Shown here: piece after piece, positions 1 through 5,544 of the stretch
Layout: every line of letters starts with the position of its first letter
Numbering within the stretch: the first letter of the stretch is position 1
IMG/VR virus record: IMGVR_UViG_3300030060_005444
Span: 1 to 26,217 of that record
DNA length: 26,217 nt
Strand: one strand, 5' to 3'
DNA from: a virus
The notes under the pieces: generated by a model
Databases searched by the model: none
What the model saw: the letters and a program-made list of their open reading frames with translations, nothing else
Told to the model about the DNA's origin: nothing
Made by a program: the position numbers and the translations under genes

Positions 1-36
1 AAAACCTTATGTAAGCAAGATGCTTATATCTTTCAG

Positions 37-62
37 GAGACCCTTCACGGGTCTCTTTTTTT
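37..62 (+). terminator. Rho-independent terminator
   Basis: A perfect 7-bp stem (GAGACCC at 37-43, GGGTCTC at 49-55) closes the 5-base loop TTCAC and is followed by seven T. It ends the transcript of whatever gene lies upstream of the window. The loop coincides with the -35 element of the next promoter. Confidence 0.9.
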
Positions 63-72
63 ATGCTATAAT
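44..72 (+). promoter_or_regulatory. Sigma70-type promoter inside the terminator
   Basis: TTCACG (44-49), a 17-base spacer and a perfect TATAAT (67-72), with an extended -10 TG at 64-65. The -35 matches consensus only partly and lies in the terminator loop. It would drive the tail-tube-like gene and uvsY. Confidence 0.6.
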
Positions 73-77
73 AAATA
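70..77 (+). promoter_or_regulatory. Late-promoter-like motif
   Basis: AATAAATA matches the NATAAATA form of the T4 late promoter (TATAAATA in T4) described for marine T4-like phages. It overlaps the sigma70 -10 and lies 24 bases before the ATG of a virion-type gene, where gp55-dependent late transcription is expected. The motif is short and this DNA is AT-rich, so position is the main support. Confidence 0.5.
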
Positions 78-101
78 TAAACGGAGACCTGCTCAGAACT
101 A

Positions 102-659
102 ATGGCAACTCGCCCATCACAAATAGATAATAGGAATTTTCTTGCACCAGTTGGATTTAAGTTTTCACTTAAACGAAGCCCTGGTGTTGCTTATTTCTGC
201 AATAGTGCCAACATTCCAGATCTTAACTTAGGTGTTGCAAATCAACCAAACTATCTTAGAGACATTCCAGTTCCCGGAGATAAAATTGATTTTGGAGATT
301 TAAGTATTAGATTTTTAGTTGATGAAGATCTGACTAACTTCATGGAAATACAAAAATGGTTAAGAGGATTAGGTTTTCCAGAAGACGTACAAGAGTTTCG
401 TGATTGGGAAGCAAGTGGTAATCTTCCTAAAAGAAATTACGGTAGAGCAGGACATGACATCTACTCTGATGGCACTCTTCAAATATTAAGTAGTAACTTA
501 ATTGCAAAATTTAATGTTAATTTTACTGATTTATGGCCCTATAGTTTGACAACTTTATCATTTGACGCTACAGATACTGACATAGAATATTTTACAGCAG
601 ATGTTAGTTTCAAATACACTATGTACACAATTACTGATTTAGTAGGAAATGACCTTTGA
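102..659 (+). CDS. gp19-like tail-tube-fold structural protein
   Basis: A 185-residue protein that I place in the gp19-type tail-tube/baseplate-tube fold of contractile-tailed phages. The visible pattern is an FKFSL strand near residue 20, the segment around ANIPDL, a region where PVPGDKIDFG leads into a strand ending LVDEDL, and a C-terminal segment with LWPYSLTTLSFD. This resembles the VPGDK...F.VDED pattern of tail-tube proteins in marine T4-like phages. In cyanophages this slot before uvsY is often given to the tail completion protein gp3, so the exact role (tube subunit, tube initiator or completion protein) is open. It has its own promoter, including a late motif 24 bases upstream. GGAG at 83-86 is the only Shine-Dalgarno-like sequence, and it is unusually far from the start. 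The end overlaps uvsY by 11 bases. Confidence 0.7.
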   Translation: MATRPSQIDNRNFLAPVGFKFSLKRSPGVAYFCNSANIPDLNLGVANQPNYLRDIPVPGDKIDFGDLSIRFLVDEDLTNFMEIQKWLRGLGFPEDVQEFRDWEASGNLPKRNYGRAGHDIYSDGTLQILSSNLIAKFNVNFTDLWPYSLTTLSFDATDTDIEYFTADVSFKYTMYTITDLVGNDL

Positions 660-1086
660 TCTTGAAAAGATTCAAGAAATGTGGGAGAAAGATGCAAAAA
701 TAGATCGAGATAACCTACATGATGAATCTTTAAATATTCCATCACTACATGCAAAATACTTTCAGATATATAACACGATATTTCTATTAAGAAAAAAAGC
801 AGAACAACAAAGAAAAAATATACGTCACGAAAGATTTGAATATTTTAGTGGTAAGGCTGATCCTGATGTTTATATACAAAATCCATTTCCAAAAAAGATA
901 AGAGATAAAGATACAATGACTAAGTATCTTGATGCAGATGAAAAATTATCAAATGCCTCTCTTAAAATAGATTATTATGATACGATGTTAGTATACTTAG
1001 AAAGTATTCTTAAGGTTGTGCAAAACAGAACGTATCAAATTAAAAATGCTATTGAGTTTATGAGATTTAATTCTGGACTAGGATAA
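649..1086 (+). CDS. uvsY: UvsY recombination mediator
   Basis: 145 residues, close to T4 UvsY (137). UvsY loads the UvsX recombinase onto gp32-covered single-stranded DNA during recombination-dependent replication and repair. The match is over the whole length: an N-terminal helix with a KDAKIDRDNL-type segment, the central YFSGKADPD block (T4 has YYSGRGDGD), the LDADEKL segment (T4 LSADKDV) and a C-terminal helix with R..QIKNAIEFMRF (T4 R.FAIKHIQDMRAF). It is all-helical and charged. The start overlaps the preceding gene and AGGA sits just before the ATG. uvsW, its T4 neighbour, follows after one inserted gene. Confidence 0.93.
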   Translation: MTFDLEKIQEMWEKDAKIDRDNLHDESLNIPSLHAKYFQIYNTIFLLRKKAEQQRKNIRHERFEYFSGKADPDVYIQNPFPKKIRDKDTMTKYLDADEKLSNASLKIDYYDTMLVYLESILKVVQNRTYQIKNAIEFMRFNSGLG

Positions 1087-1733
1087 TGGAATCAAATTAT
1101 ATAAAAGCATATGGTGGTGTTTTTTCACCCTCTCTCTGTGACAATTTAATCGAAACATATGAGAGATTATGGAGGGAAAAGGAAGAACAATTGAAGAAAA
1201 TTAGTTTGTGTTATGATGATAAAGGCAATAAAACTTGTGGTGCATGTAATTGCCAAAGACTGGATATAATGCAACATCAAGAATTTAATGAACCATTTAA
1301 AATAGTCATGAATGGTATTCAATCTGCGATTAATCAATACAAGATAGATACAAAATTACACCACTCACAGTGGCCAAAAAAATACGGGTATGAACATTTA
1401 AGAATTAAAAGATACTTATGTAGTGAAAATCAACAACACGATTTTCATAGTGATGTTACTAATGTTGAATCTACTAAAAGGTTTTTAGCAATAGTGTGTT
1501 ATTTAAATAATGATTTTGATGGAGGTGAAACACAATTTCCTCATTTTGGTATCAATGTAAAACCAAAAAAAGGTAACATTCTACTATTTCCTTGCACATG
1601 GACTTATTTACATAAAGGTAATCCCCCTACCAATGGACATGCAAAATATATACTGGGTTCATTTTTAAATTATGCGAATCATCAACAATTTAATCGTATC
1701 GGAGATAAAAATTTAGGGATTGAGGCCATCTGA
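1086..1733 (+). CDS. 2-oxoglutarate/Fe(II)-dependent dioxygenase
   Basis: 215 residues, prolyl-4-hydroxylase-like. It has the HxD iron motif (H121, D123 in HDFHSDV), a distal histidine (H176 in YLHKG) and a basic 2-oxoglutarate-binding residue about ten positions later (K187 in GHAKYILGSF). The segment FDGGETQFP with the following KKGNILLFP strand is typical of the double-stranded beta-helix core. Such enzymes hydroxylate protein, nucleic-acid or small-molecule substrates; the substrate here is unknown. A cysteine cluster (C51, C54, C56) precedes the core and could bind a metal. Its ATG overlaps the uvsY stop by one base. Marine T4-like phages often carry several such oxygenases. This one sits between two recombination genes that are neighbours in T4, so it looks like an accessory insertion. 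Confidence 0.88.
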   Translation: MESNYIKAYGGVFSPSLCDNLIETYERLWREKEEQLKKISLCYDDKGNKTCGACNCQRLDIMQHQEFNEPFKIVMNGIQSAINQYKIDTKLHHSQWPKKYGYEHLRIKRYLCSENQQHDFHSDVTNVESTKRFLAIVCYLNNDFDGGETQFPHFGINVKPKKGNILLFPCTWTYLHKGNPPTNGHAKYILGSFLNYANHQQFNRIGDKNLGIEAI

Positions 1734-1739
1734 TAAATA
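1732..1739 (+). promoter_or_regulatory. Late-promoter motif upstream of uvsW
   Basis: GATAAATA matches the NATAAATA late-promoter motif and overlaps the stop codon of the upstream oxygenase gene. It lies 21 bases before the uvsW GTG start. In T4, uvsW is transcribed from a late promoter, which supports the assignment. Transcription would start about 6-7 bases downstream, near 1745-1747. Confidence 0.6.
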
Positions 1740-1763
1740 CATATAGATCAATGAATCTATGTG
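1740..1763 (+). promoter_or_regulatory. Hairpin sequestering the uvsW start codon
   Basis: Bases 1740-1748 pair with 1755-1763 (nine pairs, one of them G-U) around the loop CAATGA. The whole GTG start codon (1761-1763) lies in the 3' arm. A read-through transcript would contain the hairpin. A late transcript starting near 1746 would lack most of the 5' arm and leave the start free. Function is inferred from T4 precedents (gene e, soc). Confidence 0.55.
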
Positions 1764-3230
1764 AAAACAAACGTCGTTATTTCTAAAGCGAATGAAGTAT
1801 TCTTGAGAGTAAATGCTGAACCTCATATTCAGTATGAACTTCGAGATCATTTCACGTTTCAAGTTGAGAGTGCAAAGTTCATGCCTCAATATCGTAATCG
1901 AAACTGGAATGGAGAAATTCATTTATTTGATCTAAGGTCAAAAAGAATCTACGTTGGACTCTTAGATCGCATTGTAGCATTTTGTAAGAAGCACGATTAT
2001 ACTTATAGTTTTCAAGCAAATGAATATTATGGATCTCCCTTTGAATTAAATGAGGGGATATCATATGAAGGTGTAAAAGATTATATGAAATCTATATGCA
2101 GTCATTCTCCAAGAAAATACCAAGTGGATGGAGTACATGATGCTTTAAGACATAATAGAAAGCTACTGATATCACCGACTGCTTCAGGAAAATCTTTGAT
2201 GATTTATGCTCTTGTAAGATATTACGTAGATAAATCTCAAAAAATACTTCTAGTTGTTCCGACGACATCTCTCGTAGAGCAGATGTATAAGGACTTTCAG
2301 GATTATGGTTGGGATTCTGAGTCATACTGTCACAGAATATATTCAGGTAAAGAAAAAACCAATGAGTTTCCTGTTACAATCACAACATGGCAATCTGTTT
2401 ACAAATTAGAGAGAACCTTTTTTGAAGATTATAACGTTGTTATTGGTGACGAAGCTCACTTATTTAAAAGTAAGTCATTAATATCTATAATGACAAAACT
2501 GCATCATGCAAAATACAGGTTTGGATTTACTGGAACTTTAGATGGTACACAAACTCATAAATGGGTTCTAGAGGGATTATTTGGCCCATCATATAAAGTT
2601 ACAAAAACAGATGAACTTATGAAACAAGGTCATCTTTCACAATTAGATATTCAATGTTTAGTATTGAAACATCCACCACAAAAATTTGAAACGTATAATG
2701 ATGAGATAGAGTATCTTATATCGCATGAACAACGAAATAAATTTATTACCAATTTAACTCTTGATTTAAAGGGCAATACTTTAATTTTGTATAGCAGAGT
2801 ACAAGCACATGGTTCAGTCTTATATGGTATGATAAATACAAACAAGAGTGATAATCGTAAAGCTTTCTTTGTTCATGGTGGTGTTGATGCCGAAGAAAGA
2901 GAGATGATTCGTGAAATTACTGAACAAGAGGAGAATGCTATTATTGTTGCATCCTATGGAACATTTTCAACAGGTATCAATATTAAAAATTTGCATAATA
3001 TTGTTTTCGCCTCTCCGTCAAAATCAAGAATACGAAACCTCCAGAGCATTGGAAGAGTTCTCCGAAAAGGAACTAACAAAGTCAAAGCTATTTTATACGA
3101 TATCTCTGATGATTGCTCAATTAAATCAAGAAAAAACTACACGTTAAATCATCTCATAGAAAGAATTAAAATTTATAATGAAGAAAATTTTAACTATGAT
3201 ATAATCACAATTCAACTTAAAAACAAATGA
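1761..3230 (+). CDS. uvsW: UvsW DNA/RNA helicase
   Basis: 489 residues, superfamily 2 helicase. T4 UvsW unwinds R-loops at origins and branch-migrates recombination intermediates, moving replication from origin-driven to recombination-driven. The N-terminal domain (about 1-90) matches T4 UvsW, with the ELRDHF and NWNGEIHLFD segments (T4 ELRDFF, NWDGRIRLLD). Helicase motifs in order: Q/K-Y contact near 119-121, motif I SPTASGKS (138-145), motif II DEAH (230-233), motif III FTGT, motif V TGINIK, motif VI QSIGRVLRKG. The start is GTG at 1761: an in-frame TGA at 1752 excludes anything upstream, and the N-terminus then aligns with T4. No clear Shine-Dalgarno is present, and the start is predicted to be buried in a hairpin. 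The end overlaps the next gene by four bases. Confidence 0.95.
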   Translation: MKTNVVISKANEVFLRVNAEPHIQYELRDHFTFQVESAKFMPQYRNRNWNGEIHLFDLRSKRIYVGLLDRIVAFCKKHDYTYSFQANEYYGSPFELNEGISYEGVKDYMKSICSHSPRKYQVDGVHDALRHNRKLLISPTASGKSLMIYALVRYYVDKSQKILLVVPTTSLVEQMYKDFQDYGWDSESYCHRIYSGKEKTNEFPVTITTWQSVYKLERTFFEDYNVVIGDEAHLFKSKSLISIMTKLHHAKYRFGFTGTLDGTQTHKWVLEGLFGPSYKVTKTDELMKQGHLSQLDIQCLVLKHPPQKFETYNDEIEYLISHEQRNKFITNLTLDLKGNTLILYSRVQAHGSVLYGMINTNKSDNRKAFFVHGGVDAEEREMIREITEQEENAIIVASYGTFSTGINIKNLHNIVFASPSKSRIRNLQSIGRVLRKGTNKVKAILYDISDDCSIKSRKNYTLNHLIERIKIYNEENFNYDIITIQLKNK

Positions 3231-3631
3231 TCGAAGACGATTTCTATGCTACTATTAAATTCAAAAGTGGAGAGGAGATCTTTGCAAAAGTGGCTGCTTC
3301 TGAAGAAGTAGGTAGAACATTACTAATAATTTCAAATCCTATTATTGTAAATGAAGTTAAAAGTAAAAAAGGAATGACAGGATATCGTATTGAACCTTGG
3401 TTAAAAACAACTAAGGATGATATGTTTATGGTAGATCTAAGTGAAGTATTAACTATGTCGGAATCATCGGATATTGAAATGATTACAATGTATCAAAGAT
3501 GGTTAAAAGATACCATAAAAGTAAAAAATAATGAACCAAAATTAAGTCGTGCGATGGGATATATTTCTAGTGTAAATGATGCAAAAGATATATTGGAAAA
3601 ACTCTATAGATCTAAAGAATCAAAGGGCTAA
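3227..3631 (+). CDS. Sm-like small protein, family copy A
   Basis: 134 residues, function unknown. The first 85 residues look like a small Sm/Hfq-type beta barrel: a strand with IKFKSGEEIFAKV, then NPIIVNEV, PWLKTT, and a strand DMFMVDLSEVLTMSE, followed by YQRWL. The same order of elements is found in the two proteins at 23240 and 23523, especially the PWL, FM, I/V-LT and YQ-L positions, so the three look like paralogues. The remaining 50 residues are a charged helical tail not shared with the others. It starts inside the uvsW stop (ATGA overlap). RNA binding is a guess from the fold resemblance only. Confidence 0.7.
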   Translation: MIEDDFYATIKFKSGEEIFAKVAASEEVGRTLLIISNPIIVNEVKSKKGMTGYRIEPWLKTTKDDMFMVDLSEVLTMSESSDIEMITMYQRWLKDTIKVKNNEPKLSRAMGYISSVNDAKDILEKLYRSKESKG

Positions 3632-3721
3632 TATCCTTAAACCTCTACAAAGGTTATTGTACATGAAATTTAACATAATGTCAAGTATGTCATGCTGTCA
3701 CGTCATCAAATGTAAAATAAC

Positions 3722-3750
3722 TTGCCTTTTCAGTGTATAAATGTTATAAT
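3722..3750 (+). promoter_or_regulatory. Strong sigma70-type promoter for gene 55
   Basis: TTGCCT (3722-3727), 17-base spacer, perfect TATAAT (3745-3750) with extended -10 TG at 3742-3743. Transcription should start near 3757, eighteen bases before the gp55 ATG at 3775. A TATAAATG late-like string (3736-3743) overlaps the spacer. Upstream, 3632-3721 holds no gene, only a weak 5-bp hairpin at 3640-3655 and four GTCA repeats. Confidence 0.8.
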
Positions 3751-3774
3751 TTCTACATAATAGGGATTAAAACT

Positions 3775-4269
3775 ATGGCAATAATTAGACCTATGCCTAA
3801 ACGGAAAAGATCTGAACACTACGTTAATAATAAAGAGTTTCTTGCAGCTCTTATTAGATATCGTGAAGATGTGGAAATAGCACAGATACAAAATAAACCA
3901 AAGCCTGTTATACCTCGATACATTGGTGATTGTTTTTTAAAGATTGCAAATCACTTATCATTTAAACCAAACTTTGTAAACTATATGTTTAAGGAGGATA
4001 TGATTTCTGATGGAATCGAAAATTGCGTTCAATACATTCATAATTTTAATCCTGAGAAATCCAAAAATCCTTTTGCTTACTTTACGCAGATTATACATTA
4101 TGCGTTTCTCAGGAGAATACAACGGGAAAAAAGGCAACTTGATATCAAAAATAAAATCCTAGAAAGATCAGGATATGATGAAGTTATGCATGGTGATAAA
4201 GTTGACGGAATGGATACTTCCGACTATAATCAAATTAAGGATGCGGTTCATTCTAAACTGAGATATTGA
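3775..4269 (+). CDS. 55: gp55-like late sigma factor
   Basis: 164 residues (T4 gp55 is 185). gp55 binds host RNA polymerase core and recognises the late -10 motif; in T4 it acts with gp33 and the gp45 clamp. The central block from FKEDMISDGIENC through NFNPEKSKNPFAYFTQIIHYAF to RRIQREKRQ is the sigma region 2-like core typical of phage gp55. An open frame reaches back to 3733, but that ATG lies upstream of the -10 box. The ATG at 3775, followed by the MAIIRPMPKRKRSEHY N-terminus, is therefore preferred. It starts its own sigma70-type transcription unit, so the late sigma factor would be made from host-type transcription. The next gene overlaps its stop by one base. Confidence 0.93.
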   Translation: MAIIRPMPKRKRSEHYVNNKEFLAALIRYREDVEIAQIQNKPKPVIPRYIGDCFLKIANHLSFKPNFVNYMFKEDMISDGIENCVQYIHNFNPEKSKNPFAYFTQIIHYAFLRRIQREKRQLDIKNKILERSGYDEVMHGDKVDGMDTSDYNQIKDAVHSKLRY

Positions 4270-4427
4270 TGAAGAAAATACTTTTGAAAATAATAGAAGG
4301 TATAGCATTAGCAGGAATGGTAGTATTCTTAGGATTTTTATTTTTTATTGAATTGGTAGATCTGTTCATTGTTAGACCCCTTTACCAGAAATTATTTAAA
4401 AAGAAAAGACGGAGGAGAAGAGTATGA
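4269..4427 (+). CDS. Small basic-tailed membrane peptide
   Basis: 52 residues, not recognised. One clear membrane segment (about residues 11-35, GIALAGMVVFLGFLFFIELV) is followed by a strongly basic tail ending in KKKRRRRRV. The lysines and arginines should hold the C-terminus in the cytoplasm. The ATG overlaps the gp55 stop (TGATG) and the end overlaps the next start (ATGA), so it sits in a tightly coupled series from gp55 to gp47. Confidence 0.65.
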   Translation: MKKILLKIIEGIALAGMVVFLGFLFFIELVDLFIVRPLYQKLFKKKRRRRRV

Positions 4428-4507
4428 TTGAAAAAATATGGTTCACATTTAGTATCTGCTATGCAGCATTCATTTTTTATAGGTATTTTACTAAACCAAC
4501 AGTATGA
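4424..4507 (+). CDS. Tiny hydrophobic peptide
   Basis: A 27-residue frame, mostly one hydrophobic segment (WFTFSICYAAFIFYRYF). It links the 52-residue peptide and gp47 with four-base ATGA overlaps at both ends, which is the main reason to believe it. GGAGGAGAAGAG just upstream is a strong Shine-Dalgarno-like stretch. No function can be suggested; it may mainly couple translation to gp47. Confidence 0.5.
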   Translation: MIEKIWFTFSICYAAFIFYRYFTKPTV

Positions 4508-5544
4508 AAATAGCAATAATAACTGATCAACACTTTGGATGCCGTAAAAATTCAAAGGTATTTCATGATTATTTTTTAGAATTTTACAATGATATATTTT
4601 TTCCAAAGTTAGAGGAACTTGGAATAAGTACAATTGTTGATATGGGTGATACCTTTGATAGTCGAAAGGGTGTTGACTTTGCTACTTTATCATGGGCAAA
4701 AGATAATTATTTCGATCGTCTTGCTCAAATGGGATGCACAATACACACTATTGTAGGTAATCATACAGCCTATTATAAAAATACAAATGATGTAAATGCT
4801 GTTGATTTATTATTAAGAGAATATAATAATATTAAAATATATTCAGAGGCAACAGATATAAAATTAGGTAAGTTAAGTATTTTATTAATACCTTGGATAA
4901 ACTCTGAAAATAAAGAACAAACAATGAAGATGATTAAAAAGTCAAAATCACCATGTGTGATGGGTCATCTTGAATGTAAGGGGTTTGAAATAAATCCGGG
5001 ATTTGTTATGGATCATGGAACAGATGTAAAAACATTTGATAAGTTTGAAAAAGTCTATTCAGGCCATTATCATACAAGATCTGATAACGGAAAAGTTTTC
5101 TATCTTGGCAATCCATATGAAATGTACTGGAATGATGTAGGTGATACTCGCGGATTTCATATATTTGATACAGATACTATGGAACATACACCTGTAAATA
5201 ATCCATATAAAATGTTTTATAACTTGTATTATGAAGATGATGATGCACAACTTTTAGATACTCGTCAATTTGCGGGTAAAATTTTAAAGTTGATTGTTCG
5301 TAAAAAATCTGATCCTAAAAAATTTGAAAGATATATTGATAAAATATATTCATCAGATGTTCATGAATTAAAAATACTTGAAAACTTTCAACTTCAAGAA
5401 AATGAAGAGTTTGAAGCCTTTGAATCTGAAGATACACTTTCTATATTAAATAGGTATGTAGAAGAATCTGAAATTGATTTGCAAAAATCTACAATACAAG
5501 ATATAATAAAAGAAGTATATCAAGAAGCATGTGAGTTAGTCTAA
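4504..5544 (+). CDS. 47: gp47 recombination nuclease subunit (Mre11/SbcD type)
   Basis: 346 residues (T4 gp47 is 339). With gp46 it forms the Mre11/Rad50-type nuclease that resects DNA ends for recombination-dependent replication and helps degrade host DNA. The metallophosphoesterase motifs are in order: TDQHFG (D8, H10), MGDTFD (D49), VGNHTAYY (N86, H87), MGHLE, and SGHYHTR near residue 188. The C-terminal third carries the cap and gp46-binding region. It starts within the stop codon of the 27-residue peptide and ends one base into the DUF3110 gene, which separates it from gp46. Confidence 0.95.
   Translation: MKIAIITDQHFGCRKNSKVFHDYFLEFYNDIFFPKLEELGISTIVDMGDTFDSRKGVDFATLSWAKDNYFDRLAQMGCTIHTIVGNHTAYYKNTNDVNAVDLLLREYNNIKIYSEATDIKLGKLSILLIPWINSENKEQTMKMIKKSKSPCVMGHLECKGFEINPGFVMDHGTDVKTFDKFEKVYSGHYHTRSDNGKVFYLGNPYEMYWNDVGDTRGFHIFDTDTMEHTPVNNPYKMFYNLYYEDDDAQLLDTRQFAGKILKLIVRKKSDPKKFERYIDKIYSSDVHELKILENFQLQENEEFEAFESEDTLSILNRYVEESEIDLQKSTIQDIIKEVYQEACELV

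Follow-up and report, generated by a model that had tools for sequence, protein, structure and literature searches.

The leaders of the phage T4 genes e, soc, 49 and I-TevI are described as containing inhibitory hairpins, and, in the described cases, the late RNA lacks part of the helix (PMC3014915, PMC2988022). According to these accounts, the RNA helix in e, soc and 49 covers the Shine-Dalgarno sequence and/or the start codon, as does the hairpin considered here, which precedes the helicase gene uvsW of a cyanophage. For gene e, the RNA produced from late promoters just upstream is reported to be devoid of the 5′ part of the helix (PMC3014915), which is also what we propose for uvsW. A late promoter is likewise described directly upstream of the hairpins in the homing endonuclease genes I-TevI, I-TevII, I-TevIII, segB and mobE, similar to the uvsW arrangement, and the inhibitory structure of I-TevI is described as present only on early and middle RNA, again as proposed for uvsW (PMC2988022). 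However, the I-Tev leaders are said in the same source to hide a consensus Shine-Dalgarno sequence, whereas the stem analyzed here holds the start codon instead.

In T4, UvsW is reported to be made from a late promoter, a likeness to the layout of cyanophage uvsW, and to unwind the R-loops at the origins that start early replication, so that its late timing matters (PMC3016281). The T4 late motif is placed at positions −13 to −6 (PMC1524935), the bases right after the motif are described as AT-rich in T4 late promoters (PMC2988020), and NATAAATA is described as the late motif of cyanophage S-PM2 (PMC2984593). In the open-licence literature that was searched (titles and abstract openings), we found no mention of a hairpin at cyanophage uvsW.

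Here we analyze such a hairpin in a 26,217-nucleotide stretch of viral DNA, hereafter the window. Judged by its predicted anatomy, the hairpin appears to join the T4 hairpins that are relieved by late promoters (e, soc, 49 and I-TevI), and its sequestering of a start codon seems to fit the definition of this class. A match to the late motif lies immediately upstream; a helix over the start in the longer RNA is predicted by folding and finds support in the comparison of relatives; and the 5′ arm is located 5′ of the late start if +1 is the sixth base past the motif, as in T4. Unlike T4 e, soc and 49, the present case involves another gene and another phage family and is known from sequence and predicted folds; furthermore, the stem at uvsW is short and AT-rich with a 5′ arm directly past the motif, and the position of the 3′ arm varies by clade. 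In RB14, a relative of T4, there is no late motif within 60 nt of uvsW, and the close succession of motif, hairpin and start is absent because the closest TAAATA lies within segE, about 100 nt upstream.

The uvsW locus and its predicted hairpin

By Pfam and PHROG matches, the window is part of a T4-like cyanophage and includes a tail-tube family gene, uvsY, a 2OG-Fe(II) oxygenase gene, uvsW, a gene for an Sm-like protein, gene 55 and SbcD/SbcC-like genes of the gene 47/46 type (Table 1). A similar order, from uvsY through uvsW to gene 55, is found in named cyanophages, with small genes inserted or missing; the Sm-like gene carries the label 'methylamine utilization' in several relatives. Both uvsY and the oxygenase gene lie 5′ of uvsW on the same strand, and no terminator-like site was found on the plus strand between position 58 and uvsW. 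The TGA stop codon of the oxygenase gene (1731-1733) overlaps the late motif, and therefore ribosomes ending there could disturb the hairpin.

Table 1. Features of the uvsW locus in the window and SegE-type loci with the same layout in other contigs
Feature	Position	Strand	Evidence or remark
Intrinsic-terminator-like hairpin	35-57	+	5′ of the gene cluster; no other plus-strand site of this type found in 1-5000
Sigma-70 (early) type promoter-like site, TTCACG-17-TATAAT	44-72	+	Consensus match only; TG before the second hexamer
uvsY, recombination mediator	649-1086	+	Pfam PF11056, E 4e-40; PHROG 231
2OG-Fe(II) oxygenase gene	1086-1733	+	Pfam PF13640
T4-type late promoter motif GATAAATA	1732-1739	+	Motif match in sequence; predicted promoter
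Hairpin 5′ arm CATATAGAT	1740-1748	+	Sequence, predicted fold
Putative late +1 (A, sixth base past the motif)	1745	+	Inferred from T4
Hairpin loop CAATGA	1749-1754	+	Predicted fold
Hairpin 3′ arm ATCTATGTG	1755-1763	+	Whole uvsW GTG start inside
uvsW, helicase gene, GTG start	1761-3230	+	UvsW_N PF21241; PHROG 16
Sm-like domain protein	3227-3631	+	PF16243; overlaps the uvsW end
Gene 55, late sigma factor	3733-4269	+	PHROG 234; in-frame ATG 3775 may be the start
SegE-type loci with motif-arm-start layout	L352:1360-1844; L346:1119-1577; L366:1764-2223; L382-L541	L352: −	

The initial annotation had placed uvsW downstream of an early-type promoter. There is indeed a consensus match ahead of the gene cluster, which is a candidate source of read-through RNA, but the scan for sigma-70-type promoters gave a total of 34 matches against 29.8 expected, that is, the chance level. 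The TATAAT of this match overlaps a late motif, ATAAATA (71-77), ahead of the first gene, an arrangement (window 44-77) reminiscent of the combined early and late promoters that have been described in S-PM2 and RB49 (PMC2984593). Over the window, ATAAATA is rarer than in shuffled sequences (6 occurrences versus 15.8 expected, with at least 6 in 100 of 100 shuffles), as if stray late promoters were avoided.

Direct reading confirmed the late motif and the adjoining nine-pair hairpin of the initial annotation. The hairpin spans 24 bases between the oxygenase gene and uvsW, with one G-U pair (U1742-G1761), and its 3′ arm contains the entire GTG start (1761-1763). The predicted folding energy of the hairpin alone is −7.3 kcal/mol; the segment 1734-1775 is predicted to fold at −8.4 kcal/mol (z −3.57), and none of 200 shuffles was equally stable. 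The hairpin is retained in both the minimum-energy and the centroid folds of positions 1700-1800, a 101-base stretch that is not unusually stable as a whole (z −0.48). In RNA that begins at 1745 or 1746, the hairpin is not predicted to form, and the predicted cost of opening the start region (−8 to +5) is 8.3 kcal/mol for the read-through RNA versus 2.0 kcal/mol for the late RNA. A clear Shine-Dalgarno sequence was not seen in the window; the stem takes in the start codon itself.

The length of the stem alone is at the chance level: the plus strand of the window contains 7 stems of at least 9 pairs (loop of 3-8, at most one G-U pair), compared with 6.05 on average in 20 first-order random sequences. 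The case therefore rests on the relatives, and it is the placement of the stem between a late motif and a start codon, together with the relatives, that is special. Rfam gave no matches in the window at the gathering score. A terminator role for the hairpin was rejected because the stem is not followed by a run of T. A small upstream open reading frame beginning at ATG 1751 was dropped as well: inspected by eye, it runs in a different frame from uvsW in the window, and among the few relatives inspected in the same way, the ATGs in the loop have no common frame or stop.

Co-adaptation of the motif-proximal bases with the uvsW start

The uvsW loci were collected as the best 80 from viral contigs for each of four overlapping queries, which is not a census, along with 20 phage-collection records, one of which is RB14. 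Loci of different queries may share a contig, and identical spacers were merged. Of the resulting 328 loci (327 and the window), 8 had no readable start or upstream stop, leaving 320; 294 of these have the late motif [ACT]TAAATA 15-28 nt before uvsW, yielding 160 distinct spacers, and the remaining 26 lack a motif at this distance. The spacer between motif and uvsW is 19-25 nt long, and the start codons of the 160 distinct spacers are GTG in 79, ATG in 75 and TTG in 6. In 36 of the 160 distinct loci, TTGAC lies within 20 nt 5′ of the late motif that precedes uvsW, always at 13 bases; the window has TTGAGG at this place (1719-1724), too close for a −35.

Given the location of the motif in T4 late promoters, +1 is expected at the sixth base past the motif, A1745 in the window. 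The sixth base is A in 151 of the 160 distinct spacers. The previously proposed loss of the 5′ arm from late transcripts is supported by the comparison of cyanophages described below, with the start position itself taken over from T4. The spacers together with six coding bases fold at −4.81 kcal/mol on average, compared to −2.56 when shuffled; taken singly, only 35% of the 160 are more stable than their own shuffled versions at p 0.05. In the bases directly past the motif, the G + C content is 35% in the 160 uvsW spacers versus 25% at 235 late-motif sites from five genomes, and the hairpin may explain this higher value at cyanophage uvsW.

The first five bases past the motif (bases 1-5) contribute a mean of −3.19 kcal/mol to the folding of the remaining leader and the start in the 160 spacers, as against −1.63 when they are exchanged among loci, a loss of 1.6 (z −14.9, 0 of 300 permutations). 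When the spacers were reduced to representatives less than 80, 70, 65 and 60% alike (68, 38, 33 and 26 spacers), z was −10.0, −8.8, −7.4 and −6.3, respectively, and the real value was unmatched in 1000 permutations of each set. For the 33 representatives less than 65% alike, there was no effect for bases 6-10 (z 0.8) or for the five bases preceding the motif (z −0.4), and bases 9-13, which were meant as a control, showed a weak effect (z −1.8). To allow for descent, near-relative pairs were drawn from the UvsW protein tree with no reuse. Among 80 such pairs, a locus folded better with its own bases 1-5 in 45 and with those of its partner in 16, with 19 ties (Wilcoxon p 3.9e-6). The control bases 6-10 gave 24 own against 27 swapped with 13 ties (64 pairs), and bases 9-13 gave 37 against 19 with 15 ties (71 pairs, p 0.012). 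On the strength of these sequence comparisons, the five bases past the motif are co-adapted with the uvsW start region in the relatives.

In 81 of the 160 spacers, a symmetric scan, in which the 5′ arm begins, by construction, at most 4 bases from the motif, detected an inverted repeat with a score of 4 or more, compared to 45.4 spacers in permuted sets (sd 4.2, largest 55). In the scored stems, the end of the 3′ arm ranges from 8 bases 5′ of the start codon to the fifth coding base. Because the antisense strand is co-adapted as well (z −5.6), the argument for the sense strand rests on the count of mismatches within the stems, namely 23 G-T, 1 A-C and 4 others, as opposed to 8.1 G-T and 3.7 A-C in the permuted sets. 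The ratio of G-T to A-C is 7 to 1 in the 68 representatives and 5 to 0 in the 33, with cells that are not independent. This asymmetry favors pairing in the sense RNA.

The paired changes that the initial annotation had suggested looking for across cyanophages are present, most clearly in the 23-nt class (25 spacers). In this class, 87% of the cells are paired, against 35-52% in slid registers, and its tree includes 18 double compensatory changes, 19 one-sided changes that keep the pair, 21 losses and 8 gains, compared to 1-10 double changes in the slid registers. In the class of the window (57 spacers of 21 nt with GTG or TTG), 63% of the cells are paired versus 35-58% in slid registers, with 5 double and 44 one-sided changes, 73 losses and 32 gains on the tree. 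The 21-nt ATG class (25 spacers) is 58% paired (slid, 39-47%), with 6 double changes, and the 20-nt class (20 spacers) is 70% paired (slid, 26-44%), with 2; the 22-nt class (19 spacers) misfits any one register (44% paired; slid, 42-52%). From arms and a register that wander while the promoter anchor stays fixed, we infer that a blocking role fits better than a protein-binding site.

Controls and loci that lack the hairpin or the motif

As the control, we used motif matches before open frames, that is, predicted promoters, in five of eight whole cyanophage genomes (S-SM2, SynMITS9220M01, S-SKS1, Sf-CH5 and P-SSM2). Of the 235 such sites, 145 with spacers of 15-28 nt were retained; removal of 8 uvsW/SegE sites left 137 for the folding contribution, and removal of 7 genes with a length of 480-500 codons, including two other than uvsW, left 138 for the opening energy. 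The contribution of bases 1-5 is −3 kcal/mol or stronger in 85 of the 160 uvsW spacers versus 6 of the 137 other late-motif sites, which are themselves weakly co-adapted (z −1.87). Between the read-through and late RNAs, the opening energy of the start region differs by a median of 1.99 for uvsW and 0.59 for the other sites, with overlapping distributions; the difference amounts to at least 2 kcal/mol in 80 of the 160 uvsW spacers compared to 37 of the 138 other sites (p 0.024 on the 33 representatives).

A clear stem is absent in 79 of the 160 distinct spacers. By the opening measure, uvsW of S-SM2 shows no gain (−0.66), and that of SynMITS9220M01 has the opposite sign (−3.05) although a hairpin is predicted; on the S-SM2 side of the tree, only 12 of 35 spacers gain at least 2 kcal/mol from bases 1-5. 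The initial annotation would have counted against itself a loss of pairing in homologous phages that keep the same regulation. This was found in part: the motif is kept, yet the pairing is weak or absent in four of the seven near relatives looked at (L003, L006, L007 and L015), where the contribution of bases 1-5 is 0.0 to −1.8. Because about half of the spacers, S-SM2 and these four near relatives are without clear pairing, the putative hairpin guard of uvsW is common and recurrent but not universal. Strong versions are present, for instance, in the cultured cyanophages S-SKS1 and S-B43.

For the uvsW loci without the motif, with RB14 left out and identical sequences counted once, 19 starts were available. 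The repeat, defined by a bases 1-5 contribution of −3 kcal/mol or stronger, is present in 1 of the 19, and the start overlaps or abuts the stop of the upstream frame in 15 of these distinct cases. In seven named motif-less phages (L086, L087, L088, L092, L093, L096 and L099), the annotated upstream frame is uvsY; motif-less uvsW overlapping the upstream frame is also seen in contigs such as L161. S-SCSM1 and P-TIM68 are examples of phages with the uvsY overlap. Loss of the motif combined with the uvsY overlap suggests that uvsW switches between being controlled late and being coupled to uvsY.

Proposed mechanism and alternative explanations

We consider it likely that the hairpin switches uvsW translation depending on the promoter, with uvsW off in read-through RNA and on in late RNA, and the hairpin probably keeps UvsW off until late infection. 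Under this model, read-through RNA that begins further upstream, such as in the uvsY transcription unit, would carry both arms, and with both present, the GTG start and its surroundings would be paired and uvsW would be translated poorly. Late transcription of the gp55 type would begin at about A1745, leaving 1740-1744 out of the RNA; the four remaining pairs would fail to hold, and uvsW would be translated. The presumed purpose is to keep an R-loop-unwinding helicase from early origin firing. In this scheme, the position of the late +1, the occurrence of read-through, the timing and the purpose are all carried over from T4. If the model is true, the change from early to late replication in common marine viruses would be controlled at translation as well, and the natural variants, with a hairpin, without one or overlapping uvsY, make the purpose of the guard testable by comparison.

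Translational coupling offers a different and, in our estimate, unlikely explanation. Here, the ribosome terminating on the upstream gene would cover the 5′ arm, so that the hairpin would tie the translation of uvsW to that of the upstream gene instead of silencing it early. The stop of the upstream frame is located 3-7 nt before the motif end in 90 of the 160 distinct loci (27 + 40 + 23), and in the window it overlaps the motif, as coupling would have it. However, coupling fails to explain why the co-adapted bases lie between the late motif and the inferred +1, and the motif-less uvsW starts, most of which overlap the upstream frame, are nearly devoid of the repeat. Coupling and the promoter-dependent switch could coexist.

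Other explanations assign the repeat to protein binding, to the stability of the transcript or to chance. We regard as very improbable an RNA operator for a protein (RegA-like or autoregulatory) or a hairpin that stabilizes the 5′ end of the late transcript: many relatives do have a AGATGAATGG- or AGGTGA-like sequence past the inferred +1, but both loops and stems vary by clade, and a stabilizer would be absent from the late RNA if +1 is base 6, the position at which A predominates. The least probable of the readings is a DNA palindrome to which a regulator of the late promoter would bind as its operator. An inverted repeat adjoining the promoter and co-adaptation of the antisense strand would be compatible with such an operator, whereas the excess of G-T over A-C mismatches, the variation of the arm sequences by clade and the wandering register and length of the stem argue against it. 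There is also little to recommend the notion that the hairpin in the window is a chance AT-rich stem, irrespective of the relatives. The count of such stems in the window is close to expectation and some near relatives are without the hairpin, but it is kept in the two relatives closest to the window on the tree, L001 and L002, with contributions of bases 1-5 of −9.7 and −7.8 kcal/mol, respectively, next to −7.8 kcal/mol in the window. The UvsW of L001 is 99% identical to that of the window, and the two spacer bases that differ both keep or add pairing.

The SegE-like nuclease and other genes

Three of the 19 strongest control sites, in three phages, belong to a SegE-type GIY-YIG nuclease (PF19835), a gene that resembles the T4 homing endonucleases in kind and was tested after being noticed among the strongest sites of the control genomes. 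The late motif precedes the SegE-like gene in 154 of 163 loci (160 contigs and three reference genomes); of the 9 without a usable motif, 8 are cut by the contig end, and L450 has the motif and the arm but falls outside the start rule. The exchange of bases 1-5 gave z −8.5 for 91 distinct spacers, −6.2 for 41 representatives and −4.1 for 24 representatives less than 65% alike (0 of 300 each), whereas for the control bases 6-10, the values were in the opposite direction (z 2.3, 1.5 and 1.3). In the S-SKS1-like group, ATAGCTCAT, which follows the motif, pairs with the first three codons, ATGAGTTAT or ATGAGCTAT, and the ATG is therefore buried. In the SegE group that was scored with a TTG start, folding is weak or absent in many spacers, and the next ATG may be the true start. 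PHROG 447 is named 'NAD synthetase', yet its members in L346, L352 and L366 match Pfam SegE_GIY-YIG (E 2e-53 to 4e-55), so this name looks wrong.

A broader reading, on which we are evenly divided, is that T4-like cyanophages have a general guard for late genes, in which the bases between motif and start evolve as the complement of the gene's own start region. Genes guarded in this way would be silent in read-through RNA and active in late RNA. The guard would be used on DNA-processing enzymes (uvsW and the SegE-like GIY-YIG nuclease), would come and go between lineages and would be replaced by the uvsY overlap where the late promoter is lost.

Two endonuclease-like genes of cyanophages, L351:17914-18348 (minus strand) and L367:16971-17393, have opening differences of 9.0 and 16.4 kcal/mol, respectively. 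One of these genes has an HNH/NUMOD3 match and the other a weak GIY-YIG match, and the differences are large, as is known for the T4 homing endonucleases. Outside the cyanophages, the uvsW genes of Sinorhizobium phage phiM19, Acinetobacter phage Berthold, Vibrio phage GR28A and Rhizobium phage RL38J1 were compared, and a nearby late motif was found only in Berthold. In this phage (L543, about 40 bases upstream of position 604), the motif starts 36 bases before the uvsW start, and a predicted hairpin directly after the motif covers the leader with its AGG, making Berthold uvsW a possible independent case outside the cyanophages.
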